Shown here one piece after another: positions 10,577-64,000 of a stretch of 64,000 bases of DNA. The translations under genes were made by a program, and so were the position numbers. The stretch spans positions 5,794 through 69,793 of the forward strand of contig PAPD01000018.1 in assembly GCA_002708765.1 (NCBI GenBank). The letters run 5' to 3'. How positions within the stretch are numbered: position 1 is the stretch's first letter; each line of letters starts with the position of its first letter. This DNA comes from Gammaproteobacteria bacterium (lineage in GTDB: Bacteria; Pseudomonadota; Gammaproteobacteria; Pseudomonadales; Azotimanducaceae). Under the pieces are notes generated by a model. The model saw only the letters and a program-made list of their open reading frames with translations. It ran no database searches and was not told where the DNA came from.

Positions 10577-11623
10577 ATGACTGACTCTCCTGAAGGGTAT
10601 GATGTAGAGAAAGTAGAGGAATGGATCAGAACTAACATATCCGAGTTGTCACCACCTCTAACGTGGATCCGGCTCGAGGGCGGTCATTCCAATCTCACCT
10701 ATAGAATAGAAGATAGCTACGGGAAGGCGGCTGTCATCACGCGCCCTCCTCAAGGCGAACTGCTGCCTAAAGCTCACGACATGAGCAGAGAATGGTCGCT
10801 AATCTCTGCCCTAGGACCTACGCCGGTCCCCGTTCCAATAGCGATGGGTTTTTGCGAAAGTCCGGAGATCACGGGCGCCTGGTTTTATGTCATGGGTCTG
10901 GTGGATGGGCGACCCTTATACAATAACGAGGAAACTCTGGACTGGGTGCCGGAATCCAAGAGAAAGACACTTGCTTATTCCTTTGTAGACGTGCTGGCTG
11001 ATCTCCACGCCGTTGACCCGGGAAAGGTCGGGCTAAGTGATCTTGGGAAAGCCGATAGCTACGTAGGTCGCCAGCTCAAAACATGGTATAGATCCTGGAC
11101 ATCATCTATAGAATCCGCCCATTATGACGACCCTCGGGCGCACGAGCTACAGGAATTCTTCATCAAAAATCTTCCCGAACAAAAGGGGCTTAGAATAGTC
11201 CACGGCGACTATGGACTGCATAACTGCTTGACGGGACCGGATTCAAAGATTGCAGCAGTGGTAGACTGGGAAATATCGACCCTGGGAGATCCGTTAGCCG
11301 ATCTAGCCTATGCACTGAATTTTTTTCCTGATCCATCTGATGCGATTCCGATTTCCCCAGAAGCCGCGACTGCTGTTCCAGGGTTCCCCGCTAGGTCTGA
11401 ACTAGCGAAACGATATGGCAAAAGAGCAAAAGCAGATCTATCTAACCTTGACTATTATACTGGTTTCAATCGCTGGAAATCTGCGTGCATCGTCCACGGC
11501 GTCTACGCAAGATATATGGCAGGACAGAAAAGCTCTGAAGGTGTAGACCTCGAGCACATGCGTGAGCGAATTGGAATAGCTCTTTCCCTATCCGAACAGG
11601 CAGTGAATCGACTTACCCAATGA
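10577..11623 (+). CDS. APH-family phosphotransferase (ACAD10/11-like kinase)
   Basis: A 348-residue aminoglycoside-phosphotransferase-fold kinase. The nucleotide-loop EGGHSNLTYRI, Brenner motif VHGDYGLHNCL (catalytic Asp) and metal-binding VVDWEISTLGDPLADLA are all intact. This is the subgroup fused to, or found beside, acyl-CoA dehydrogenases, where it phosphorylates hydroxyacyl groups. I prefer the ATG at 10577 over an in-frame GTG at 10553. Its stop overlaps the next start in ATGA, so it is translationally coupled to the TPR lipoprotein. It is divergent from the MaoC-like pair. Confidence 0.88.
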   Translation: MTDSPEGYDVEKVEEWIRTNISELSPPLTWIRLEGGHSNLTYRIEDSYGKAAVITRPPQGELLPKAHDMSREWSLISALGPTPVPVPIAMGFCESPEITGAWFYVMGLVDGRPLYNNEETLDWVPESKRKTLAYSFVDVLADLHAVDPGKVGLSDLGKADSYVGRQLKTWYRSWTSSIESAHYDDPRAHELQEFFIKNLPEQKGLRIVHGDYGLHNCLTGPDSKIAAVVDWEISTLGDPLADLAYALNFFPDPSDAIPISPEAATAVPGFPARSELAKRYGKRAKADLSNLDYYTGFNRWKSACIVHGVYARYMAGQKSSEGVDLEHMRERIGIALSLSEQAVNRLTQ

Positions 11624-12756
11624 AATGGCTTTTCCTCTTTATTCCGTTATTGATCTGGGCGTCCATGAGTTGCAACGCTTCCATTATTGACGAGCTGGAA
11701 AAGAAAGGCATTGAGCTTCAGCTTGAGGGAAAATACAAAGAAGCAAAGATTATTGAAACGCAACTTATCTCGGCTGCAGATAACCCCGTAGGCCATGTAT
11801 TCGCGCTTAACTCCATAATTACGCAACTCACCTGGAATGAAACCAAAACCGAATACGATAACCTGCTTTTATACCATTCTCGAAAAGCACTTGACTGGTG
11901 CGAACCTATACTGGAAAAAAATCGAAAACATATCCTCGCGAATTTTTACTGCGGACAAACCAACTTCGCCCTTAGCTATCATCACGGGCTGAAGGGTAAT
12001 TATTACAAGGCCGGGAAATATGGAACCAATGGAATCGATCAAATGGAAACGGCCCTAAAATACGACCCGGAATTGCACGACGCAAAAATGCAGCTGGGTC
12101 TAGCCTACTACGTTGCAGACAACCTTCCCCCTTTTTTAAAAATATTTAGTCGCTTCCTATGGTTCATCCCCACAGGGAATTCCGAAAAAAGCATCCCGTA
12201 CCTTCTCGAGGCAATCCAAAAGGGGGATCGATACCGAGACGTAGCACGATATACTTTCGGTTCTCTGATGCTAGAAAAAAAAGCGACTCACGGTGAGGCC
12301 GAAAAACAATTCAGGAAGCTGGTTTCAAAGTACCCGGGAAATCCGAGATTCCAGGTACAACTAATATTCATCTTGCTGATACAGGAAAAGTTTGAAGAAG
12401 TCATCTCTGTGGCCAAGACATTTATTCGAACAGGAGACCCGGACACTCCAGAATTTAATCTGGCAAAAGTGTCCCTTATTCGCGCACAAATGGGAATCCA
12501 GAATATCCAAGAAGCAGAAAACACCTATGTCGAAATAAAGGCCTATTTTAATTCTGATGAATCGAGTCTACCCGGCTGGGCTTTTGCCTGGTTTAAACTG
12601 ACCTCCGCGCAACTCCATGACTTGAAGCAAGACCGAGCCAAAGCTCTTAAGAATTATAAAGAAATTCTGGAAATCTCGAAAAAAACCTATGTTTTCGAAG
12701 ACATAAAATCGGCAGCCAAAAAGGGGCTCGAAACCCCATTCCAGGCCCTACCCTGA
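11620..12756 (+). CDS. exported TPR-repeat protein
   Basis: A 378-residue protein with a signal peptide ending near Cys18 (weak lipobox SMSC), followed by helical repeats. YKEAKII, NYYKAGKYG, HGEAEKQFRKLV and AKALKNYKEIL are recognisable TPR helices. No catalytic motif is visible, so it is probably a scaffold in the periplasm. It overlaps the kinase gene by 4 bp and the glycosyltransferase starts 2 bp after its stop, so the three are one operon. Confidence 0.75.
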   Translation: MKWLFLFIPLLIWASMSCNASIIDELEKKGIELQLEGKYKEAKIIETQLISAADNPVGHVFALNSIITQLTWNETKTEYDNLLLYHSRKALDWCEPILEKNRKHILANFYCGQTNFALSYHHGLKGNYYKAGKYGTNGIDQMETALKYDPELHDAKMQLGLAYYVADNLPPFLKIFSRFLWFIPTGNSEKSIPYLLEAIQKGDRYRDVARYTFGSLMLEKKATHGEAEKQFRKLVSKYPGNPRFQVQLIFILLIQEKFEEVISVAKTFIRTGDPDTPEFNLAKVSLIRAQMGIQNIQEAENTYVEIKAYFNSDESSLPGWAFAWFKLTSAQLHDLKQDRAKALKNYKEILEISKKTYVFEDIKSAAKKGLETPFQALP

Positions 12757-12757
12757 A

Positions 12758-13771
12758 ATGCTCAGTATCATCATCCCCACGCTCAATGAAGCAAGGAACA
12801 TAGAAACCCTCATTCTCCAGTTAAAGTCTCAGAAGAAAATCAGTCTCGAAATTATTATCAGTGATGGAGGATCAGAAGATGGCACTATTGAGATTGGCAA
12901 AGCACTTGGCGCCAAAATTGTTTCAGGCCCGAAAGGAAGAGGACAACAACTAAACAGAGGCGCAAGATCAGCAATCGGAGAAGACTATCTTTTTCTCCAT
13001 GGTGACAGCGAATTAAGAGATCCGGATCAGCTCAAAAAATCTCTTGATTTTGTGAGGGAACAAAAAGGACCAGTGGCAGGTCATTATCAGATAGACTTCG
13101 CTTGCGACGATCCGACAGTTAAAAAATTTTTACGCTTCTTTGAAATTAAATCAATTTTCAACAGGGAAGGTACCTTCGCCGGGGATCAGGGACTATTAAT
13201 ATCGAGAAAAACGTTTGAAGAGATGGAAGGGTTTTCGGAGGAACTTACGTTTCTCGAAGACAAGGAATTCGGTGAACGTTTTTTCCGTAAGGGCAAGTTC
13301 GTAACCTTGCCCGGAAGAATCAGAAGTAGCGCTAGACGATTCGAGGTTGAAGGCATGAAGGAGCGAGCTATTTTAAACCTCCTAATTATGTCTATGCACC
13401 ATTTGAGGCTAGATAATTTCTTCGAATCCGCATCTTATATCTACAGGGAATCATCTGAAGCGGGGAAATTAGATCTGCTCCCTTTTTTTATTCAAGCCCT
13501 TCATGAACTAATGAGAGATGGCTCCATAGAAAGCTTCAGAAAATTTAGCCGATTAGGACGTTGGGCGAATTCCAATATATGGCAGAGCTTCCTGTGGTTG
13601 GGATTGAAAACAAAAAGGGAACATAGGTTGGTAAAGATATACGATAATTATTTTGCAAAGCATACTAGGAATTTTTTCGGGGACGCCCTATCCACTTTAG
13701 CAATCATCATCTGGTTCTTTGCCAAACTTCTTTCTCAATGGACAAGAAATAAACTGGGGAAATTCTTCTAG
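12758..13771 (+). CDS. family 2 glycosyltransferase (TIGR04283-like)
   Basis: A 337-residue GT-A fold glycosyltransferase. MLSIIIPTLNEARNIE opens the nucleotide-binding domain, SDGGSEDGT is the first Asp motif, GRGQQLNRGA and FLHGDSE (DxD-like) follow. This order matches the family 2 group described as radical-SAM/selenodomain-associated (TIGR04283) from memory, but here about 110 additional residues extend the C terminus, ending in a hydrophobic stretch (about 305-325) that may bind membrane. It ends in a 4 bp overlap with the convergent aldo/keto reductase gene. Confidence 0.85.
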   Translation: MLSIIIPTLNEARNIETLILQLKSQKKISLEIIISDGGSEDGTIEIGKALGAKIVSGPKGRGQQLNRGARSAIGEDYLFLHGDSELRDPDQLKKSLDFVREQKGPVAGHYQIDFACDDPTVKKFLRFFEIKSIFNREGTFAGDQGLLISRKTFEEMEGFSEELTFLEDKEFGERFFRKGKFVTLPGRIRSSARRFEVEGMKERAILNLLIMSMHHLRLDNFFESASYIYRESSEAGKLDLLPFFIQALHELMRDGSIESFRKFSRLGRWANSNIWQSFLWLGLKTKREHRLVKIYDNYFAKHTRNFFGDALSTLAIIIWFFAKLLSQWTRNKLGKFF

Positions 13772-14799
13772 GACACTCCCAACGACAACAAATTCTCTAA
13801 AGGGCGATAAAGCTCTTCAAGGTAATCATTATCTTCTTCTTCAAGTTTTATTGAAGGAGACTCTACCAACTCGAGAAGTTGTTTTGAACTGGACACACCT
13901 ACAATTGGGGCCGTAATTTCGGGTTTGTTGCACAACCAAGCTAGTGCTATCTGCGCTGATGTTTTATCGTAACGTTTTGCAAGATCGGCAACCCGAGCCG
14001 CTATCTTAAAATCGACTTCTCCTTTGTATAAGCTTTCTGTTCTAGCCTGATCCTTTCCCTTTGAACGATTGGTTGTGCCCTTCTTTAACGAACCCCCATA
14101 AGCTCCCGTTAAAATACCTCTAGCCAAAGGCGACCAGGGTGTTATCGCTATTCCATTTTCCTGGCAATAAGGAATCATTTCCCGTTCTTCTTCCCGATAG
14201 ACAAGATTATAGTGATTCTGCATGGAAACGAACTGTGTCCATCCTGCCGATTGCGCGGTCATCTGTAGCTCGGAAAATTGCCAGGCAAACATACTTGAAG
14301 CTCCAAGATACATGGCTTTACCAGATTTAACGACATCGTGAAGGGCCTCCATAGTTTCTTCGATAGGAGTCTCAACATGAAAAGGTATTCCATGAGGGTG
14401 CCTGTGAATGACGAGGTGATCGATATAATCTATTCCCAATCTCTTGAGAGATGCATCAACACCTTCAATTATATGCTTGCGAGATAGCCCTCCTGAATTC
14501 GGACTCTTAGACAGAGGCATCGCTACCTTTGTCGCGAGCACGTAATCTTCCCGCGGGAGCATCTCACGAAGAATTTTTCCTATAACCTCCTCGCTAGCTC
14601 CCAGACCATAGACATCTGCGCAATCGAAATAAAACAGTCCTTTTTCGAATGCGACCTTAAAAATCTTTTTTGTCTCTTCATAATCAAGAGTCCAGTCCCC
14701 CTGGTGCCCCCGACCGGGGATACCGAAATTCATTGTGCCAAGGCAGATCTCTGAAACTCTCAACCCTGATTGAAAGCCAAGCTGGACTGCTTCTAACAT
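13768..14799 (-). CDS. aldo/keto reductase
   Basis: A 343-residue NADPH-dependent aldo/keto reductase of the YajO/Gpr type. LGTMNFG near the N terminus, catalytic Asp-Tyr in FDCADVYG, the catalytic His in HLVIHRH and the cofactor region ITPWSPLARGIL are clear. It reduces aldehydes or ketones in the cytoplasm. It is divergent from the crotonase gene, with 60 bp between the starts that must hold both promoters. Confidence 0.93.
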   Translation of the reverse strand: MLEAVQLGFQSGLRVSEICLGTMNFGIPGRGHQGDWTLDYEETKKIFKVAFEKGLFYFDCADVYGLGASEEVIGKILREMLPREDYVLATKVAMPLSKSPNSGGLSRKHIIEGVDASLKRLGIDYIDHLVIHRHPHGIPFHVETPIEETMEALHDVVKSGKAMYLGASSMFAWQFSELQMTAQSAGWTQFVSMQNHYNLVYREEEREMIPYCQENGIAITPWSPLARGILTGAYGGSLKKGTTNRSKGKDQARTESLYKGEVDFKIAARVADLAKRYDKTSAQIALAWLCNKPEITAPIVGVSSSKQLLELVESPSIKLEEEDNDYLEELYRPLENLLSLGVS

Positions 14800-14859
14800 C
14801 TCTATTCCTTTTTATATAAAAACTCTGGAAATATTACATTACAATTCCTTTTTTATCTT

Positions 14860-15660
14860 ATGGGAACACCTATGAATTTAGAGACACTTCTCTTTGATAT
14901 TTCAAACAATATTGCCACGATCACTTTAAACAGACCGGATAATGCGAACGCGCTGGATCCTACAATGGCCAGGGAATTAAGTGAAGCTGCGATCGAATGT
15001 GATGAAAACTCTAGCGTTAGAGCAGTAATAGTCCAAGGCACCGGCAAGATCTTCTGTGCCGGAGGCGACTTAAAAGCCTTCGCCAATGCAGGAAAAGCTG
15101 CCCCAGCACTGATAAAAAAAATGGCTGGCGATCTTCACCTGGCCATATCCAGATTCAGCAGAATGAATTCACCGGTTATCGCAGCCGTAAATGGGACAGC
15201 TGCGGGAGCCGGATTCAGTATAGCTGTCTCGGCTGATCTTGTCGTTTCGACTAATTCCACGAAATTTCTACTTGCCTACACAAATGCCGGACTTTCTCCG
15301 GATGGAAGTTCTTCCTACTTTCTGCCGCGCCGCATTGGAGATAGAAGAGCAAGAGAGTTAATGTTAACCAACCGTGTTTTATCATCAGCAGAAGCTCTCG
15401 ACTGGGGACTCATAAACGAGGTGGTCGAAGAGGCAATTCTTGATCAAAGAGCCAGGGAACTGGCAACAAACCTCGCGAAAGGGCCAACTCTAGCTTTCGG
15501 GCAAGTAAAAAGCCTTCTCAATGCCTCGTTCGATAATGGCCTCGAAACACAGATGGAGCTCGAATCTCGAGGAATCGCTGACATGGCTAGATCACATGAT
15601 GGTCAAGAGGGGATAGATGCTTTCCTGAACAAAAGAAAACCAAGTTTTTCCGGGAGATAG
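14860..15660 (+). CDS. enoyl-CoA hydratase/isomerase family protein
   Basis: A 266-residue crotonase. ITLNRPDNANALD and the oxyanion-hole CAGGDLKAF (about 66-74) are typical. At the two positions where hydratases carry Glu, this protein has Ser (GAGFSIAV) and, in the second loop, an Asp in LSPDGSS, as in isomerase-type crotonases such as PaaG. It is therefore more likely an enoyl-CoA isomerase than a hydratase. Starts at 14860 or 14872 are both possible. Confidence 0.9.
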   Translation: MGTPMNLETLLFDISNNIATITLNRPDNANALDPTMARELSEAAIECDENSSVRAVIVQGTGKIFCAGGDLKAFANAGKAAPALIKKMAGDLHLAISRFSRMNSPVIAAVNGTAAGAGFSIAVSADLVVSTNSTKFLLAYTNAGLSPDGSSSYFLPRRIGDRRARELMLTNRVLSSAEALDWGLINEVVEEAILDQRARELATNLAKGPTLAFGQVKSLLNASFDNGLETQMELESRGIADMARSHDGQEGIDAFLNKRKPSFSGR

Positions 15661-15828
15661 ATTATCTTTTCCGCAAATGAGCAAGCGCTATTTCGTTGAA
15701 GAAAATGCGTACCAGCGCGTATTGCTTTATACTGGACCTACAATATTCAAGTATTAACAAGTCCTAACCTGGACTAACACGAAAGAAACGTATCCAAAAG
15801 ATACCAAGATAAAAGGCACCTAGATTTT

Positions 15829-18057
15829 ATGTCAGACTTACCCAAAATTATCTATACGGACACCGATGAAGCGCCTAGGCTAGCTACCTATTCGCTTCTC
15901 CCGATAATCAAGACCTTCACAAAAGCGGCAAAAATTGAAGTTGAATTACGAGATATATCGTTAGCAGGAAGAATTCTTTCCGCTTTCCCTGAAAGACTAT
16001 CCGAAGCACAAAGAGTTACAGATGATTTGCATTACCTGGGCGAGCTAGCCAAACAACCAGAGGCCAACATAATAAAGCTACCCAATATTAGTGCTTCAAC
16101 TCCGCAGATGCAGGAAGCAATAAAGGAACTAAAGAATAAGGGATACGACCTTCCCGACTACCCCGAGGAACCAGGAAATAGCGAAGAGGAAAATATAAAG
16201 GTTCGCTACGACAAAATAAAAGGAAGCGCCGTTAATCCAGTGCTTAGAGAAGGGAACTCCGACAGAAGAGCGGCGGCGGCAGTAAAGGAGTTTGCAAAGA
16301 AGTTTCCGCATAGGATGGGGAGCTGGGAAAATTCATCAAAAAGTCATGTCGCACACATGAACCAAGGTGATTTTTATGACAGTGAACTATCCACCATTGC
16401 GCAAGAAGATGGACATATTTCAATCGTCTTTGATTCAGGGAACGAACAAAAGATATGGGCTGAACGTATCCCTGTCAACAAAGGCGAGATAATAGATGCA
16501 GCTTTTTTGAGCAAAAAAGCCTTATGTGATTTTTTCGAAGAGCAGATCTCCTCAACAGAGGAAGGCGTGCTTTTTTCTCTTCATTTAAAGGCAACCATGA
16601 TGAAAGTCTCGGACCCCAAAATGTTCGGGCATTGTGTCCGAGCTTATTATGGGGCAGCTTTGGATAAGCATGAAGAAACCTTGATGAAGCTAGGAGTAGA
16701 TCCGAATAACGGCATCGGGGATGCCTACGACAAAATTAGTGAGCTACCCGAGGAAGAAGCAAAACAAATTAGAGAGGACCTGGACTCATGCCTGCGCAAC
16801 GGCCCTGATCTCGCAATGGTAAACTCTGACAAAGGCATTACCAATCTGCATGTTCCTTCAGATATCATTATCGATGCTTCGATGCCAGCAGCTATCAGAG
16901 AATCGGGGAAAATGTGGGGCCCGGATGGGGAACTGCATGACATGAAAGCTGTCATTCCCGACAGATGCTATGCCAGCTTATATGACGAAACCATAAAGCA
17001 TTGTATCCAATACGGCGCTTTTGATCCTAAGACTATGGGGTCTGTTCCCAATGTGGGATTAATGGCACAGAAAGCAGAAGAGTATGGATCTCATGACACC
17101 ACATTCGAAGCACCTGACGACGGAGAAATTCGTGTAGTAGATAGCGGAGGCAATAACCTTCTCCGGCACTTGGTTGAAAAAGGTGATATCTGGCGGTTAT
17201 GCCGAGTAAAAAACGGACCTATCGAAGACTGGATAAAACTGGCGGTAAAGCGAGCCAAATTAACCGGGTGGCCTGTGGTTTTCTGGCTTGACGAAAACAG
17301 GGCACATGATGCCAATCTCATTGGGAAAGTAAATTCAATATTATCGGATAGCGATCAGAACGACTATGAGTTTTATATCAAATCTGTGCCTGACGCCGCT
17401 CGTTTCACATTAGAAAGAGCACGAAACGGTGAAAATACGATTTCAGCGACAGGTAATGTCCTAAGAGATTATCTAACCGATCTATTTCCGATTCTGGAAT
17501 TGGGGACAAGCGCTAAAATGTTGTCCATTGTTCCTCTAATAAATGGTGGCGGTCTTTTCGAGACCGGCGCCGGAGGATCTGCTCCGAAACACGTACAGCA
17601 GTTTGAGGAAGAGGGACACCTGAGATGGGATTCTCTAGGTGAATTTCTCGCTCTGGGAGCATCACTTGAACACCTGGCTGTAGCGTTTGACAACAAACAA
17701 GCGCAGGTTCTTGCCGATACGCTTAATCAAGCAATCGCAAAGTTCCTGGAAAGCAATAAATCGCCTTCCCGAAAGGTCAACGAAATCGACAACAGAGGAA
17801 GCCACTTCTTCCTTGCCATGTATTGGGCAGAGGCCCTTGTTTCTCAAACAGCAGATGTTTTCTTAAAAGAACTATTCCAGACTTTAGCAGCGACCTTGAG
17901 AGAAAATGAAGAAAAAATATGTGGAGAACTCCTAGCTTCACAAGGAAACTCGGTAAACCTTAGTGGCTACTATTCACCAGACACAAATCTAGCCGAAAAA
18001 GCCATGAGGCCCTCCGAAACCTTAAATCTGGCGTTAAGCCAGGTATTCAGCAAATGA
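15829..18057 (+). CDS. icd: monomeric NADP-dependent isocitrate dehydrogenase
   Basis: A 742-residue protein matching the monomeric isocitrate dehydrogenase (IDH-II) along its whole length. The N terminus [20 protein letters not shown] and [20 protein letters not shown] are family hallmarks, and the usual length is about 740. It oxidatively decarboxylates isocitrate to 2-oxoglutarate in the TCA cycle, making NADPH, and acts as a single chain rather than a dimer. A 168 bp leader before it contains possible promoter elements but no clear operator. A phosphatase gene follows 18 bp later. Confidence 0.97.
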
Positions 18058-18075
18058 CTTTTACCAAGCGCTAAA

Positions 18076-18690
18076 TTGAAAAACATTTTTTTTGTCAGAC
18101 ACGGCCAGACGGAATGGAACTCGATAAAGCGAGTCCAGGGGCAATGGAATTCCAGCCTTAACCATTTAGGGGAAAAACAAGCGAACAAAAACGGAGAATT
18201 TCTTCGAGATAGAAATATAGATTATATGTTCTGTTCTCCGCTTGATAGAACCCGACAGACTGCGGAAATTCTATGTGCACATTTGCCTCTTCAGGCAAAA
18301 TTTGATGAAAGGCTTATGGAGTGGGATACGGGAAAATGGAGTGGATTCATGTGGGAAGAAATTCCTGAAAAATGGCCCGATGGATATTCCCAGTGGGAAA
18401 AGGATCCATTCAACTACCGATGCCCCGGGGGGGAAAATTATCCGGACATGATCGATCGTGTAACTCCATTCATCGAGAGTTTAAAAAAGCTTAAAGAAAC
18501 CAACATCGTGATCGTTTCTCACGGGATAATTGGCAGAGTGATGATCGGACTGATACTAAAACATTCACCTGAACAGATGCTGTCATATCACCAGTCAAAC
18601 GATACGGTCATAAAACTTACCCAATCTCCGGAATCTGTCAACGCCGAGCATTTTATTTCGGGAGTAGGCCCCTACATCGGCCTTCCTTAA
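18076..18690 (+). CDS. histidine phosphatase family protein
   Basis: A 204-residue phosphoglycerate-mutase-like phosphatase. The catalytic RHG lies in FVRHGQTEWN (residues 5-14), a second Arg in CSPLDRTRQT, Glu in RLMEWDTGKW and the second His in VSHG. The start is a TTG at 18076 just before the conserved core; no ATG fits. Members dephosphorylate small metabolites or phosphoproteins. It converges on the PabB-PabC gene with a single-base gap. Confidence 0.9.
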   Translation: MKNIFFVRHGQTEWNSIKRVQGQWNSSLNHLGEKQANKNGEFLRDRNIDYMFCSPLDRTRQTAEILCAHLPLQAKFDERLMEWDTGKWSGFMWEEIPEKWPDGYSQWEKDPFNYRCPGGENYPDMIDRVTPFIESLKKLKETNIVIVSHGIIGRVMIGLILKHSPEQMLSYHQSNDTVIKLTQSPESVNAEHFISGVGPYIGLP

Positions 18691-18691
18691 T

Positions 18692-20395
18692 CTAATCGAC
18701 AAGGATAGCTTCTTGAAGACCCCGGACACTGTTTCCCACATAAATCTTCTCTGCGATCTTGATACTTTCTCTCGATAAAACTCGTTCTGTAGCCTTTTCT
18801 TGAGCAAGCATATGGGCCCTGAATGTTCCGGGAAGCAGTCCACATTCGACAGATGGGGTAACTAAATCGCCCTCGATCTCTAAAAATATATTAGAAATAG
18901 TAGTTTCTGTTATCTCATCTTTTTCGTTAAAAAGAATCACATCATCACACATCTTTATATTTTGCTTCGCAAGCTCATAGATTTTTCGATTGGTGGTTTT
19001 ATGAAAGAGAAAAATATTTCTACTGTTAATCGGGGTTAATGACAATTTGAGACGAACCTTGTCTTGTTCAAGCTTTATCGGCACTGTCTCGATTCTTGTT
19101 TCGCCATTCTCTTTTATTAACAGTCTAATTCTTAGCAGCTCTTCGGAATCGATCGAAGCCAGAAAATTCCTGACACCAGCTTCATCGAAAGTACGGTCGA
19201 AGTATTCGGCCGAAGATTTGATTCTCGCAATATGTTCCTCAAGCAAGTAGATTTTCTCTCCGGGTACAAATTTCATCGTTTCAAACAGCTCGAACGATGG
19301 ATTAGAGAAGTTCAGAATAGCTGCCTTGGAAAGGCTTTCTGCTAGCTCTTCATCGGGATCAGAATCCCAGACTATGCCGCTCCCAATGCCATAGCTCGTC
19401 CGCCGCTTTTTTTTATCGATAAACATCGTCCGGATCGCTACATTAAAAAGTGCGCTTCCGCCTGGTTTAAGATAACCAACAGCACCAGTGTAGACTCCTC
19501 TCGGAGTCTCTTCTAATCGAGATATTATCTCCATCGCTTTTACCTTCGGAGCCCCTGTCACAGACGCACATGGAAACAGCGCGGCGAAAATCTCACTCAG
19601 ACTAGCATCTGTTATTCCGGACACAGAAGAGGTTTGCTGCCAGACAGTGGGCAAGCGATGAAGTTCAAATAATCTCGATGCCTTCAATGATCCCGGAACA
19701 CATATTCGTCCAAGATCATTGCGAACCATATCGAGGATCATTAGGTTCTCCGCTCTATCTTTTTCAGAGGTCTGCAGATCGATCTTATTTTTTTTATCCT
19801 CTTCATAGAATCTGCCGCGAGGCCTCGTGCCCTTCATAGGTTGCATTTTTATCTTTTTCCCCTCTAAGGAAAAAAACAGTTCGGGTGAGACGCTACATAT
19901 TGAAAAATCTTCGTTTTCAATTAAAACCCCATAACGAGTAGGCTGGGCTCGGATCAATCTGGAGAAAATATTCCGAGGTTCCTGTATTTTCTGTCCATTC
20001 AATTGACTAGTTAAATTGACTTGATAGACGTCCCCCTCTTCCAGATGCGTTTTTATACTTCCTATTGACTCAATATAACTCTCACCATCTATTTTCGTTT
20101 CTAGCTCTATTGGATTATCATCCTCTATGAGAGAAACAGGTTCGACAGAATCAAACGCTGCAAAAAAGGCCAAAGGCTGATCGTTTCTCAAAGAATGTTT
20201 TAACGCAATGTCGAAGGCACTTGCTGCTTCATACGAAACGAATCCCGCCAAGTAACAACCCTCCGATGCCGATTTCTCCGCTTGATCTAGAATCTGAACT
20301 ACCTCGTTTTTTTCTTGTGCCTGAAAAACTCGGATAAGGTTTCGCATTTCCATCCACTCGTTCCAATCTGGATCAAAATATATAGCACGAAACAT
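18692..20395 (-). CDS. pabB: aminodeoxychorismate synthase I / 4-amino-4-deoxychorismate lyase fusion
   Basis: A 567-residue fusion of two folate enzymes. Residues about 1-345 are the chorismate-binding PabB part: PMKGTRPRG holds the PabB Lys nucleophile, ENLMILDMVRNDLGR and GAVGYLKPGG follow. Residues about 355-567 are the class IV aminotransferase-like PabC part (FELFETMKF, then a Lys in FLFHKTT and NEKDEITETTISN). Together they turn chorismate and ammonia into 4-aminobenzoate. The glutamine amidotransferase PabA is not in the window. Confidence 0.93.
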   Translation of the reverse strand: MFRAIYFDPDWNEWMEMRNLIRVFQAQEKNEVVQILDQAEKSASEGCYLAGFVSYEAASAFDIALKHSLRNDQPLAFFAAFDSVEPVSLIEDDNPIELETKIDGESYIESIGSIKTHLEEGDVYQVNLTSQLNGQKIQEPRNIFSRLIRAQPTRYGVLIENEDFSICSVSPELFFSLEGKKIKMQPMKGTRPRGRFYEEDKKNKIDLQTSEKDRAENLMILDMVRNDLGRICVPGSLKASRLFELHRLPTVWQQTSSVSGITDASLSEIFAALFPCASVTGAPKVKAMEIISRLEETPRGVYTGAVGYLKPGGSALFNVAIRTMFIDKKKRRTSYGIGSGIVWDSDPDEELAESLSKAAILNFSNPSFELFETMKFVPGEKIYLLEEHIARIKSSAEYFDRTFDEAGVRNFLASIDSEELLRIRLLIKENGETRIETVPIKLEQDKVRLKLSLTPINSRNIFLFHKTTNRKIYELAKQNIKMCDDVILFNEKDEITETTISNIFLEIEGDLVTPSVECGLLPGTFRAHMLAQEKATERVLSRESIKIAEKIYVGNSVRGLQEAILVD

Positions 20396-58921: not shown

Positions 58922-61684
58922 TCAGAATCTAGCGAACCTCCCCCCACTTGATATAACCATATATTGCTTTTCCAGATTTCTGGTCATTTTTTCTAGGAAC
59001 GAGATCAATTCACCTTGTGTAAGCTTCGATACCTCTAGTGCCAACTGCTCACGCCCATCAAAAGAGACTATATCAAGCTCAAAGTCAGACCAGTACCTGG
59101 AGGCCCTTTGTCGCAGGTTTTTATCTCGCAGCAGCAATTTCTTTGTTAGCCCTTTCTTATTTGTATTAAACTCTTCGGCTCCCATCGCACGTAAACGACT
59201 TTTCTGACCTTTAACATAATCAAGTACTCGGGAACGCAAAACATCGGGCCCAGCTACTGGAGACTGAACAATAAAACCTAGTCCACTGCGTTTTCTTATA
59301 GTGCTATTCAAGGCAGCAACCACATACCCTAACTGCTGATCGGTACGAAGATCAGAGAAAAACCCCGGAGCTATTAAATGATGGAGCAACGCTGTCTTGC
59401 TCCTGTCCTCCAGACTCTCCGAACCCGCTTGAACGTATAATAGTATAGCAGCATCATCATGCTCCAGATGAAGGTCTATGTCCCGTGCATTTTTGACCTG
59501 AAGCACCTCGGGAGGAGATATATCTGTCTCGGTCAATGTGAAGAAGGAACCAAACAGGTCGCGGATTTCTTGGGGCACGCCCTCATCAAAATTACCTACC
59601 AGCAAGGCCTGGACGGAGACATTCTCTAGTTGACTAGATCGCCACCGGACAAGCTTCCCCACCGTAGCATTTTCAAGTTCATCAATTATCTTTTCAATCG
59701 GCCAAATGGATTCGATCAATTCCTCTCGAAGTTTTCGCAAAGCCTGCTGATAAGGTTTATCAAATGACTTGTTTTTGAGATCTTTAAGCAATTCGTTTTT
59801 AAGCGCTATAAAACGACTCTGCTTGACAGCCAAGCCTGTTAATTCCTCTAGGACTTCTTCAAGCAAGACTAACTGTTTTTCATTGTATCCTCTAACCGTG
59901 ATTTTAAAACCTTCCGAGCCAGGTTCGATTTCATAGCTCAACCCTGCAAGGTAAGCTGGGTATGACAACGAATTGAGAGAATCTTCTACAATTGCTGCAT
60001 AGAGACTTGCGAAGGCCTGATCTCGCGGGGATCGCCACCCTGAAACGGGACTTACCCTGACCTGAGTTACCGCTCTTGGAACCCCGAAATCCGTATCGCT
60101 GTCCAGATAGATTTCAACTCCTTCGTCTTCCAGCGCCAATCGAGGCGCGCTTGGGCTTGCCTCAACTAGCTCAAGCGAGGAAGGGAGAAAGAGATTTTTT
60201 TCCGGAAGCCTTAATTCGCTAGAATCAATCTCAGGCAATTCCAATGGGCCAAGATCCAGATCGTAAGACACCCCGAAATATTTCTCCGTCTTTCTCCCAA
60301 GGTATCCCGGGGAGGAAATGGAAACCAATACATTGTCCGGTTTAAGCTTTGCAAGATAATCACGGATAAGATCCTCATCAAATTTTTCCATAAGGTAAGC
60401 TGAAGAAAGTATTGATTCCCAAGGATATCTATTCAGTCTCGATGAAATCATCTGGACCGCAGAGATAGCGGGTACTTTTTCCGCAAAACGGAATCCGATA
60501 TCAGCCATTTTTGCCTGTTCCTGATAACGCCATTCGTGCACGGGTTCTGACCGCGCCAAATCAAGGTAATCGAAAAGATACCGGCTTATTTTAGGAATGA
60601 CAGCGTATCCTTCTTCGGTCATATCCATGGAGACGACAACAAAAGAGTTGGTTTCGTCATAATCAATCGCGCCCGCAACTAATGATTCTATCCATCCCTT
60701 TTTTATCAGTACATTGTGAAGGCTGCCTTCTCCTTCATGCCCAACCAGATTCGAAATATAATCGAGCGGCCTACTATCGAAGTGCTTCCGGGCCGAGGCA
60801 ACCGGAAACCCGAATGAAATTCTGTATGTCTCTTTAACATTGTCGTGCCTGAGTGTGGCTGGTATACCACTTTTTTTTACTAACGGAACAATGATTGCGG
60901 CCTCCTCAAGGTCTCCACTTTTTAAGTTTGAGAAAATATTCCTTACCCAGTTTTCCATCTCACCCAAAGGTTCATTCGTTAAAACTACGAGCCCCATCTG
61001 ATTGGCTGAGTATTTTCCCCGGAAGAAAGCCAAAAGATCAGCGTGGACCTCTCCAGAAAGAGTTTCAAGATTCCCGATATTGAATTTCGCTTCAGGATGT
61101 TCCGGGTTGATAGCTATCTTGTTAACTGCATCAGCTCGCCATCTGTCGTCCTGATACTGCATTTTATATTCGGCATTTACCGCATTTTTTTCACGTTCTA
61201 CGTACTCCTTAGACAAGAGGGGGGAAATAAAAAACTGTGCGAAACGATCAAGCCCCTCTCTAAAAGCACCCGGGTTAATATCGAAAAAATAATTGGTGTG
61301 ATCCGAGGCAGTATAAGCATTCGAGCTGCCGCCATTAGCCCGAACAAACTTCAAGTATCCATCCGGTTCAGGATATTTTTCCGTCCCTATAAAAAGCATA
61401 TGTTCAAGAAAGTGAGCAAGCCCTTGTCGATCAGCTGGATCATCGTAACTTCCTCTGAATACACTCATGGAGGCAGCCGACCTGTCGGCGGCCTTATCGG
61501 AGATAAGAACCAGCTTCAGTCCGTTTTCCAGAACAAGATACCGATAAGCCCGATCGTCATTTGGGCTCGTCCGGAGTTTATCGGTTCCTTTGTTATATGA
61601 ACCTTGTCCTTCTATTTCTCCTCCACATGAGACCAGAAGATTTAAAAAGAGAAGGAATGAAATGGTGATACAACTTTTTCTCAA
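58922..61684 (-). CDS. pitrilysin-like M16 lipoprotein metalloprotease
   Basis: A 920-residue insulinase-family protease. The inverted zinc motif HFLEH lies at residues 91-95 and the distal Glu in the EREKNAVNAEYKMQ region. The TTG at 61684 with GGGAG 5 nt before it gives a signal peptide ending in lipobox LVSC (Cys20). Two M16 halves and an inactive-domain repeat are visible; E. coli pitrilysin is of similar length (about 960). It probably degrades peptides in the periplasm. Confidence 0.93.
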   Translation of the reverse strand: MRKSCITISFLLFLNLLVSCGGEIEGQGSYNKGTDKLRTSPNDDRAYRYLVLENGLKLVLISDKAADRSAASMSVFRGSYDDPADRQGLAHFLEHMLFIGTEKYPEPDGYLKFVRANGGSSNAYTASDHTNYFFDINPGAFREGLDRFAQFFISPLLSKEYVEREKNAVNAEYKMQYQDDRWRADAVNKIAINPEHPEAKFNIGNLETLSGEVHADLLAFFRGKYSANQMGLVVLTNEPLGEMENWVRNIFSNLKSGDLEEAAIIVPLVKKSGIPATLRHDNVKETYRISFGFPVASARKHFDSRPLDYISNLVGHEGEGSLHNVLIKKGWIESLVAGAIDYDETNSFVVVSMDMTEEGYAVIPKISRYLFDYLDLARSEPVHEWRYQEQAKMADIGFRFAEKVPAISAVQMISSRLNRYPWESILSSAYLMEKFDEDLIRDYLAKLKPDNVLVSISSPGYLGRKTEKYFGVSYDLDLGPLELPEIDSSELRLPEKNLFLPSSLELVEASPSAPRLALEDEGVEIYLDSDTDFGVPRAVTQVRVSPVSGWRSPRDQAFASLYAAIVEDSLNSLSYPAYLAGLSYEIEPGSEGFKITVRGYNEKQLVLLEEVLEELTGLAVKQSRFIALKNELLKDLKNKSFDKPYQQALRKLREELIESIWPIEKIIDELENATVGKLVRWRSSQLENVSVQALLVGNFDEGVPQEIRDLFGSFFTLTETDISPPEVLQVKNARDIDLHLEHDDAAILLYVQAGSESLEDRSKTALLHHLIAPGFFSDLRTDQQLGYVVAALNSTIRKRSGLGFIVQSPVAGPDVLRSRVLDYVKGQKSRLRAMGAEEFNTNKKGLTKKLLLRDKNLRQRASRYWSDFELDIVSFDGREQLALEVSKLTQGELISFLEKMTRNLEKQYMVISSGGRFARF

Positions 61685-61956
61685 TTGAACTCCCAAAATC
61701 CTTTAAGCCGTTCTAGGAAACCGCTTTTCGTGTGCACTCGAATCTACCCGAATTTAGCTAGCGAGCCCAAATGTTTCGGTGATACTAACGAATACACCTT
61801 TAAAAGAAAATAACAGATCTCAGCAAAGTAATTCAGCAGGACACTCCTCTTGACGTAAAACTCTGAACAGTTAAAACTGAGAATCCTAGATACATAGGTT
61901 ACATATCAAATATTGAATTTTTTCAAAAAAGCTGAATTTCGCACTGGGAGACCACG
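61685..61956. other. upstream region of the selenoprotein gene
   Basis: A 272-base non-coding stretch between the divergent M16 and selenoprotein genes. TTGACG at 61850-61855 is a possible -35, but the downstream -10 is weak. Short inverted repeats are present (CAGTT-AA-AACTG near 61868 and TTGAA-TTTT-TTCAA near 61914). Confidence 0.4.
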
Positions 61957-62298
61957 ATGGCAAAGAAAGTAGAATGGTATTACTTCCGTAAAGGATGAAC
62001 TACTTGCACCAAAGCATCCAAGTTTTTGGAAGCCAGTAAAATTGACATAATTGAAACGGTGATGGCCAGCAAAAAACTGCAGGCAAAAGATGCCGCCTTA
62101 TTGCTTAAAAACGCCTCTAAGGTTATAGCTATGAAAGGCAAAAAGGTATCAGAATTTGATATAGAAAAAACAGCCAGTACTGATGCAATTGAATCAATGC
62201 TTGGACCGACGGGAAATATGAGAGCACCAACGATAAAGGTAGGAGAAACCTACCTGGTCGGATTTAATGAGGAGATCTTTTCTCGAGAATTCGGATGA
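61957..62298 (+). CDS. ArsC-family selenoprotein with UxxC active site
   Basis: A 113-residue thioredoxin-fold protein. The frame from the ATG at 61957 (GGGAG 7 nt before) reads KKVEWYYFRKG, then an in-frame TGA at 61996-61998, then TTCTKASKFLEASKIDI and onward to a second TGA at 62296. The TGA replaces the first Cys of the redox CxxC, giving Sec14-x-x-Cys17. The C-terminal half (TGNMRAPTIKVGETYLVGF) is that of ArsC-like proteins, with the cis-Pro loop in RAPTI. A SECIS-like hairpin follows. It is probably a redox enzyme or reductant. Needs the Sec machinery, not in this window. A plain stop or sequencing error would leave 13 residues only. Confidence 0.85.
62009..62029 (+). promoter_or_regulatory. 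candidate SECIS element
   Basis: CCAAA (62009-62013) pairs with TTTGG (62025-62029) around an 11-base loop starting with G. The loop begins 16 nt after the UGA. From memory, this matches the bacterial SECIS rule (G among the first loop bases, loop 16-37 nt after the UGA). A competing ACTTG/CAAGT stem overlaps it. Confidence 0.45.
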
Positions 62299-62339
62299 AA
62301 AAGGACTATTATTAAAGTAAGAGCTGGATTTATGAAGTT

Positions 62340-62365
62340 ATCAGACGCACTCTATTTCGTCTGAT
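62340..62365 (+). terminator. possible terminator hairpin after the selenoprotein gene
   Basis: ATCAGACG at 62340-62347 pairs perfectly with CGTCTGAT at 62358-62365 over a 10-base loop. No long T-run follows, so termination is likely but not proved. Confidence 0.4.
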
Positions 62366-62406
62366 TACTCTATGCATAGAAGCCCTTAACAGAGGAACTT
62401 TAAGCG

Positions 62407-64000
62407 ATTAAACTAAAAACACTTGGAATTGTTGCAAGTTTTAATCTCTCCTTGCTAGGGTGCGGCGGCGGCGGAGAAGAGCTGGCCAATCCAAGAATAG
62501 ATCTTCCCGATTCATCGGTAGATTCGCAGCCACTAACAATTATAGAGACTATTCCCAGATCAGATGTCATCAACGCTGACCCCGACAGGACCACTCTCGC
62601 GATAGCGCACCTTTCCAGAAACAATCCTACCAGCGACTTTTCAACGAACTGCTCGAATATTAAATCTATAAAGATATCAAGAAGAATTACCGACCCCGGG
62701 CCGGAGAATTTCTCCGAAATCACCCAGCACATCATTGATTGCGATTTAGAAGAGAACACCGAGCACACAATTACTCTAACTGACCAAGGCCCGGACGGAG
62801 AAAATCTGGAAGGAGACCACAAATTTTCTACCGGCGTATCAACTGAGAATGAAATAATAGTTAAAGAGAGTATCGCTCTATCCAGAGATCAAGTTAGAAA
62901 CCTTTTCGCCAGTTATGTTTCAGGCGCTCTATTATCCGACCTCGAAGCACCGGCAGCAGTCATAGATCTGATCTTGGAGCCTTTTCTAGGTATAGCAGAC
63001 CAATACTGGAAAACTCTGCTTGATCCCAGGCCATTATATGATGTGATTTCTGAAAGAGTATCTTATCAATCGCAAGATCCATTCGGTAACCCAATCACAG
63101 ATCTTACGGGACTGGTCAGCTATCCAGATATTCAGGGGATGTCGGAGTTTTCCAAGCGATCGACAATGATTCTGCTTTCCCATGCAACTGGCTCTAGTCC
63201 CGGAGATCTCAACCCCGAAGATGCGTGGTTCATTATTGCCAATCAGTTATCCTCGAGAGGTTATCTTGTTTTGGCTCCGGACAACTACGGTCGCGGGAAA
63301 GACAATAATAATGAAGAAACTTATCTTCTTGCCGCACAAACTGCATTCAATGGACTTGATCTGGTGCTATCGATCAACAATAACAAATCTTATGATCCGA
63401 TCTACGAAGGGAAAAAGATAACCTTGATTGGATATTCTCAGGGGGGGCATAGTGCAACAAATCTCCTATCCTTATCAGACATTAAGTTGCATGAACACAA
63501 AGTAGTCGAATCATTTCTGGGGGGAGCGCCCTTTAATCTTTATAAAACGTTTAAAGGAGTCCTGGAGTTCCTGAACGGTTCTTGCTCCAATAGGGAATAC
63601 TGCGAGTTTGTAGATAGCAGAACTAGCGTTCCCTTTGCTACAAACAGGATTTTGCCCGCTCTTGTAAATTATTCAGAGACCGGATTAGATATTAACGATC
63701 TGGTGATCGAAAATACTCTGTCTGATGATTTCGTGAACGGGTTTCTTGCTTCAGATCCACTTTACGAAAAACTGAAACTATTGCTTGAGCTCAATAGCCT
63801 GACAAATGTCAAGAATCCGGAAAGCTTTTTTCCCAAAGACACCCTGATCAACCTCTATCACTCACCCTTTGATCGACTTGTTCCCATTGCAAACTCCCAG
63901 GATTTCATGAGTAATTTTTCTTCTGAATTTGAAATCAACTTTGATCAATCTGAGTGCAATGCTAACGCCTTCGAAGTCATATTTGAAACCATTGATAAGG
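62407..64000 (+). CDS. lipoprotein alpha/beta hydrolase, probable AUU start, C terminus outside the window
   Basis: At least 531 residues, open to the window end. The nucleophile elbow is GYSQGGHS, with an upstream strand GYLVLAPDNYGRG and oxyanion HATGSSPGD. The frame begins after TAA with GCG then ATT at 62407; translation from ATT gives KLKTLGIVASFNLSLLGC, a complete lipoprotein signal ending at Cys19. AGAGGAA lies 9 nt before it. No ATG or GTG exists here; the TTG at 62452 would delete the signal. It is an esterase- or peptidase-like secreted lipoprotein. Confidence 0.85.
   Translation, partial: MKLKTLGIVASFNLSLLGCGGGGEELANPRIDLPDSSVDSQPLTIIETIPRSDVINADPDRTTLAIAHLSRNNPTSDFSTNCSNIKSIKISRRITDPGPENFSEITQHIIDCDLEENTEHTITLTDQGPDGENLEGDHKFSTGVSTENEIIVKESIALSRDQVRNLFASYVSGALLSDLEAPAAVIDLILEPFLGIADQYWKTLLDPRPLYDVISERVSYQSQDPFGNPITDLTGLVSYPDIQGMSEFSKRSTMILLSHATGSSPGDLNPEDAWFIIANQLSSRGYLVLAPDNYGRGKDNNNEETYLLAAQTAFNGLDLVLSINNNKSYDPIYEGKKITLIGYSQGGHSATNLLSLSDIKLHEHKVVESFLGGAPFNLYKTFKGVLEFLNGSCSNREYCEFVDSRTSVPFATNRILPALVNYSETGLDINDLVIENTLSDDFVNGFLASDPLYEKLKLLLELNSLTNVKNPESFFPKDTLINLYHSPFDRLVPIANSQDFMSNFSSEFEINFDQSECNANAFEVIFETIDK

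Follow-up and report, generated by a model that had tools for sequence, protein, structure and literature searches.

The window, i.e., the whole stretch of 64,000 nucleotides analyzed here, raises the question whether a TGA codon within a short reading frame terminates translation or is read as selenocysteine (Sec). The gene concerned lies on the plus strand at 61957–62298, with an ATG at 61957 and a terminal TGA at 62296–62298, and would encode a protein of 113 amino acids when the internal TGA at 61996–61998 is translated as Sec, which then becomes residue 14. With this TGA written as U the N-terminal part reads MAKKVEWYYFRKGUTTCTKASKFLEA... The in-frame Sec codon is the opening position of a UTTC (UxxC) motif whose last position is Cys17, presumably the resolving cysteine (codon at 62005–62007, plus strand). 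The initial annotation of this DNA had proposed a selenoprotein hidden behind an in-frame TGA at the first position of a CxxC-type pair. Both details hold: the frame continues unbroken across the TGA to its own stop, with exact coordinates, and the codon sits where stated relative to the cysteine.

Standard gene calling truncates or splits genes of this type, and the standard-code list of open reading frames has in the frame of this gene only a 90-amino-acid fragment starting from a TTG past the internal TGA. Reading the sequence by eye, we recognize a Shine–Dalgarno-like GGGAG at 61946–61950 of the plus strand, 6 nt ahead of the ATG. Upstream of the gene, a promoter scan (61600–62500) detected nothing resembling a promoter. 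A scan of the window for UxxC-type motifs yielded no further candidate and tested little, because open reading frames of at least 150 amino acids on either strand masked 95% of the window.

Conservation of the internal TGA codon

With U given as C, the protein scores 115.7 bits with the NCBIfam model NF041106 (ArsC_rel_Se_1, "ArsC family (seleno)protein"; cut-off 85) and is thus a member of this family. Three other models stay below their cut-offs, with 17.9 bits for Pfam ArsC (PF03960, gathering score 24), 21.1 for PF00462 (cut-off 22.9) and 33.5 for the Spx model TIGR01617 (cut-off 75.05). The ArsC-like C terminus noticed initially is real, being weak in Pfam and clear in NCBIfam.

That the frame is no product of chance is shown by a scan of GTDB contigs, which identified 29 loci encoding relatives with 43–78% identity over nearly the full length, except for the partial locus L051, and among their record titles are Gammaproteobacteria, Myxococcota, Polyangiaceae, KSB1, and Phycisphaerae. 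Viral contigs yielded no relatives of the selenoprotein. The copy from the own genome (L080) is identical to the window and was left out, and the copy of genome G001 is likewise not in the locus set. L051 covers residues 65–112 only, with unrelated sequence upstream, and stands outside the TGA count. This truncated piece (L051:212-355) is a second copy of the C-terminal part of the family; it lies close to where its contig begins, and its MAG is also the one that contains L044. An alignment of homologues had been named initially as the way to see whether the TGA column is Cys or Sec. In 27 of the 28 loci covering the site the TGA is found in frame at the same column, and the one exception, L050 from a Pseudomonadales MAG, has TGT and hence Cys.

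The same picture emerges from whole genomes. In a set of 38 related genomes that contains the own one, 21 have a match above the NF041106 cut-off, all of them belonging to one family (21 of the 25 genomes there), and each of these members has exactly one internal TGA. Seven weaker matches occur in other families of the order, all free of internal stops. An even sampling of the class (369 genomes) has no member above the cut-off apart from the own genome, and none of its 108 weaker matches has an internal stop. We infer that the weaker matches are Cys-containing relatives of the Spx/YffB/ArsC type. Over the 66 bases compared, several of the relatives have the same gene sequence as MAG loci of the contig scan, so that the 28-locus and the 21-genome counts overlap.

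For finer comparisons we used two alignments. The first, A2, comprises 25 of the 29 loci and the window (L027, L037, L041, and L051 were left out). Its invariant positions include Trp7, Tyr9, Arg11, Gly13, U/C14, Cys17, Gly61, Lys62, GxTGN at 83–87, Arg89, Pro91, and Asn104. Cys17 is invariant in all 26 rows, the Cys-form L050 among them. The codons at 62203–62229 (plus strand) encode a conserved GPTGN-[ML]-R-A-P loop, in which Pro91 is presumably the cis-proline. The second is a gapless set that starts at the TGA and comprises 39 distinct rows, each 66 bases long, derived from 46 sequences. Its search motif required UxxC, so that neither the TGA nor Cys17 is put to the test by its statistics; L082, which also has the TGA, did not match the motif and does not enter any 39-row count. 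The terminal stops of these 39 homologues vary (TAG 15, TGA 13, TAA 11), as genuine stops would, so that the internal TGA is not merely a preferred stop codon.

A conserved hairpin downstream of the TGA

Downstream of the codon we find a candidate SECIS hairpin, GCAUCCAA-GUUU-UUGGAAGC, at 62014–62033 of the plus strand. Its stem contains an A.A mismatch and its apical loop occupies 62022–62025. The hairpin begins 15 nt and the loop GUUU 23 nt past the UGA. Published criteria for bacterial SECIS elements ask for a loop of 3–9 nt with a G within its first two positions, located 16–37 nt after the UGA, and for a minimum free energy not above −7.5 kcal/mol. Folding just these 20 nt places all 39 homologues within the limits for loop and spacing, with loops of 3–6 nt, a G in the first two positions and a distance of 22 or 23 nt.

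The pairing is conserved as well. There are eight pair positions, and at the one that is A.A in the window 33 of the 39 rows lack a pair. Over the alignment 84.9% of the cells are paired compared to 79.8% (sd 0.4) in shuffled alignments, and none of 500 shuffles reached this value. Cells changed on both sides number 11 versus 1.6 in the shuffles (0/500 as high), and four pairs show such double changes (1/500 as high). The shuffles ignore relatedness, and the pair counts are therefore no proof on their own. Structures with slid partners pair at most 48.7% of the cells. With partners slid by −1, which gives this 48.7%, the covariation score is 0.097 versus 0.107 and the number of further pair types (7) is equal. 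Individual exchanges illustrate the covariation: AAG-TTT-TTG is replaced by AGG-TTT-CTG in L032 and L046 and by AGG-TTC-CTG in L085 and L095, the change in the Leu codon being synonymous and restoring the pair. In L042, L043, and L048 the A.A mismatch has become G-C.

Synonymous sites point to the same stretch. In codons 19–25 the synonymous diversity is 0.34 of expectation, compared to 0.95 outside codons 16–27, and the lowest value of 106 eight-codon windows falls on codons 17–24. Ser21 is always TCC (34/34) and Lys22 always AAG (33/33).

The energetics are less uniform. The minimum-energy fold of 45 nt of the window has −8.4 kcal/mol at a frequency of 0.14 and differs from the proposed hairpin, which alone reaches −5.8 kcal/mol, weaker than the published limit. 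Relative to controls with synonymous codons the energy is only mildly lower, with a mean z score of −0.51 and 29 of 36 sequences below 0 in a set from which the minus-strand loci are missing. RNAalifold retains four of the eight pairs and adds three others. Rfam gave no matches on the window at gathering thresholds, and its SECIS_1 model was silent everywhere including the controls, hence uninformative. As judged from the aligned sequences, the element at 62014–62033 is a conserved and covarying hairpin of SECIS-like geometry, which would direct Sec insertion at codon 14.

The Cys-form L050 also bears on the possibility that the true codon is TGC or TGT and that a sequencing or assembly error has produced the TGA. 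Room for such an error is left by the draft state of the genome (61 contigs) and by the existence of a Cys form in the family; yet the codon is the same in 27 of 28 other loci, and the hairpin is intact in the window whereas the equivalent 20 nt of L050 do not fold, though this is a single case. With the same TGA in many other genomes, an error of this kind, which the initial annotation had named as a possible refutation by resequencing, is very unlikely, and we regard it as the least probable of all explanations. Hardly more credible is a pseudogene, in which a nonsense mutation in a CxxC protein left a decaying downstream remnant. The downstream piece could start at the TTG, and selC and selD were not seen in the draft (see below). 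Against decay, the TGA recurs in 27 of the 28 covering loci, whose record titles span several phyla, as well as in 21 of 21 members, the downstream protein is conserved, and synonymous sites are constrained right past the TGA.

Selenocysteine machinery of the genome

The reading as a selenoprotein had been taken to imply that the genome carries selA, selB, selC, and selD. This expectation was borne out for the first two genes only: in the own genome (93.6% complete) selA (571.3 bits) and selB (426.9 bits) are both over their cut-offs and adjacent to each other where contig C15 begins, and searches of the draft detected neither selC nor selD. A genome without sel genes, the other outcome named as a refutation, is thus not what we observe. 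The tetranucleotide profile of the first 12 kb of C15, which hold selA and selB, correlates with that of the window with r = 0.93; positions 11000–20223 fit more poorly (r = 0.73), and same-genus contigs gave values of 0.27 and 0.31. Since only 17 of the 369 class genomes, the own one included, have selA over the cut-off, its presence here is informative.

The sole, low-scoring selD match of the own genome is ThiL. Of its 13 tRNA-Sec matches (150 of 214 candidates scored), the 8 scanned with ARAGORN are ordinary tRNAs. A covariance model built from the tRNA-Sec of 12 relatives gave at most 42.1 bits in the own genome (150 of 768 candidates scored), compared to 106–107 bits for two of its own training copies. 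Because relatives show such linkage, we also looked for selC beside selB and the mevalonate genes on C15 and did not find it there. Misses of this kind are common in drafts of the genus: among 16 same-genus genomes, mostly drafts, tRNA-Sec is over the cut-off in 9 and selD in 13, so that seven are without a detectable selC. ARAGORN calls tRNA-SeC in three same-genus loci and then in two more. We infer that the absence of selC and selD reflects a gap in the draft of 61 contigs; a real loss in this genome is conceivable.

The missing selC could also be taken to mean that the UGA is read as another amino acid, by a recoded genome or a suppressor. We consider this very improbable in view of selA and selB, the tRNA-Sec of the same-genus genomes and the SECIS-like hairpin that follows the codon. 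Moreover, TGA still stops translation, because 13 of the 39 homologues, the window gene among them, have TGA as the terminal codon where the rest have TAG or TAA.

The reading as a UxxC selenoprotein of the ArsC family is supported by the conservation of the TGA, the NF041106 match, the covariation of the hairpin, the synonymous constraint and the Cys-form L050. The TGA is conserved, the hairpin is conserved and covaries, selA and selB are present in the genome and the protein belongs to the family; from these sequence comparisons it is almost certain that the gene is a genuine Sec-decoded member of NF041106. The UGA at codon 14 would be decoded as Sec by SelA and SelB together with tRNA-Sec.

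Several observations on the sel genes were made in passing. The related genomes G018 and G008 (L067, L068) have selD genes that themselves contain one in-frame TGA, i.e., they encode a Sec-containing SelD, and in 16 of the 25 family genomes the SelD match lies inside an open reading frame of 720–776 amino acids, apparently fused to another domain. The SelB on C15 (L019:384-3661) is about 30% identical, comparing the C-terminal parts, to the SelB of L054, L055, L056, and L059. The first three of these represent three other genera of the same family and the last one another family, and selC follows directly behind selB in all four. No selC follows selB in L019. In G007 (L097) the tRNA-Sec is near mevalonate-pathway genes, as read from the open reading frames, and homologues of these genes follow selA-selB on C15 (L019).

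Fold, probable function and comparison with known systems

The AlphaFold2 (AF2) model of the protein has a pLDDT of 89.4 and a pTM of 0.81. In VIA-align seven rows reach Z scores of 8.0–8.8, all being Spx, YffB, or ArsC-related chains (2m46 among those named). The best is Spx 3ihq (Z 8.8, rmsd 2.6, 87 aligned residues), and YffB 1rw1 follows with Z 8.0 (rmsd 4.3, 89 aligned). The ranking by Z is a near tie, since glutathione transferases come next at 7.9. Foldseek places Spx first (E 5.4e-5), and the nearest solved sequences are Spx chains (7f75_G, E 1.1e-7). This modest fold evidence is consistent with a thioredoxin fold of the ArsC/Spx/YffB type.

Selenoproteins of this kind have been described before. 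A 2006 survey reported ArsC-like selenoproteins in two Deltaproteobacteria (PMC1794560), the GOS study of 2008 had an "Arsenate reductase 2" group (cd03032, UxxC; PMC2398784), and a 2026 selenoproteome review lists NF041106 as "arsenate reductase-like protein" with UxxC (PMC13188914). By its family id NF041106 was found in the literature only in this review, according to which such predicted selenoproteins are, nearly without exception, largely uncharacterized in function (PMC13188914). Neither "arsc" nor "arsenate reductase" occurs in the main text of deep-Sep, and OM182 and K189A are not mentioned in the selenoprotein literature among the matches listed. The family is already catalogued and functionally uncharacterized, and the present gene adds one more member to it, well supported and ordinary. 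The locus is also an example of an isolated in-frame TGA, noticed in raw sequence, for which comparative evidence by itself provides the backing. Given the strong retention of Sec in 27 of 28 loci, the invariant residues and the small size, the family is a good target for learning what selenium buys these bacteria.

The genomic context offers little guidance. Upstream the selenoprotein gene is flanked by an M16 peptidase gene of opposite strand and downstream by a lipase-like gene, and both recur beside it in 9 of 29 sources, the window counted. Among these sources no neighbor recurs beyond near relatives, and we take the arrangement as synteny of near relatives without a clue to function. The downstream gene (window 62452–63999) is a secretory lipase or alpha/beta hydrolase by weak Pfam matches.

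We consider it fairly likely that the protein, presumably cytosolic, is a Sec-dependent thiol/disulfide oxidoreductase, which is a likelier role than that of an arsenate reductase. A glutathione- or thioredoxin-coupled enzyme is favored because the Arg triad of ArsC is incomplete here and YffB, likewise without the full triad, binds glutathione. Sec14 would act as the attacking nucleophile of the UxxC pair and reduce a disulfide, an S-glutathionylated thiol or a similar oxidized substrate; a selenenylsulfide would form between Sec14 and Cys17, with Cys17 as the resolving residue, and glutathione or thioredoxin would reset the protein.

The family name and the weak PF03960 match would fit a selenium-dependent arsenate reductase. 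E. coli ArsC resembles the window protein in its overall fold via YffB and Spx and is itself absent from the listed fold matches. ArsC uses one catalytic Cys, and its Arg94 presumably corresponds to R92 of Spx. The glutathione/glutaredoxin-dependent E. coli enzyme has the Arg triad (Arg60, Arg94, and Arg106/107 are needed; PMC3169414), whereas the window protein has UxxC and no Arg before the cis-proline. This residue 90, aligned with Spx R92, is Ala in 37 and Ser in 2 of 39 homologues, and residue 60, at the position of ArsC Arg60 and Spx R60, is Lys in 38 of 39. A brief look at the recurring neighbors, with annotation of the window's own genes, showed nothing ars-like. With no Arg at the cis-proline the label "arsenate reductase" is doubtful; arsenate is an improbable substrate, and we give little credence to a selenium-dependent arsenate reductase. 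With respect to YffB (P. aeruginosa 1rw1, B. melitensis 2kok) the fold is shared and the full Arg triad of ArsC is absent in both, and YffB of B. melitensis, lacking the full triad, binds glutathione (PMC3169414). The window protein differs from YffB by its UxxC with two redox residues and by the Ala or Ser before the cis-proline.

Another reading, in which the protein is likewise a selenoprotein, makes it a redox-sensing regulator of the Spx kind in contact with RNA polymerase and not an enzyme. Spx is the nearest solved sequence and among the best fold matches, B. subtilis Spx has its CxxC at the place of the UxxC, and by alignment K60 and K62 correspond to Spx R60 and K62. On the other hand, Spx has 131–132 residues compared to 113, its G52, which is required for the alpha-subunit contact (PMC2801614), falls into an insertion absent from the window's family, the R92 position is occupied by the Ala or Ser mentioned above, and the score with the Spx model is less than half of the cut-off. 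Such a regulator is accordingly unlikely. We attach equally little weight to the related idea that the family is a redox switch in which Sec is nearly obligate. It would be the selenium-based equivalent of Spx in Gram-negative bacteria, sensing oxidants via the selenenylsulfide and acting on a partner protein, possibly RNA polymerase, and not on a small-molecule substrate.

The window protein has its closest counterparts within the catalogued selenoproteins. With the members of NF041106 it shares the UxxC, and we found no feature that sets it apart from them. The "Arsenate reductase 2" group of the marine GOS set has the same motif and belongs to the same fold family, with 238 Cys versus 42 Sec forms (PMC2398784) compared to one Cys form among the 28 homologues of the window; the rarity of Cys forms here is perhaps due to the search with this subfamily. 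Comparing motif and family description, the GOS group and the family of the window protein are probably the same.
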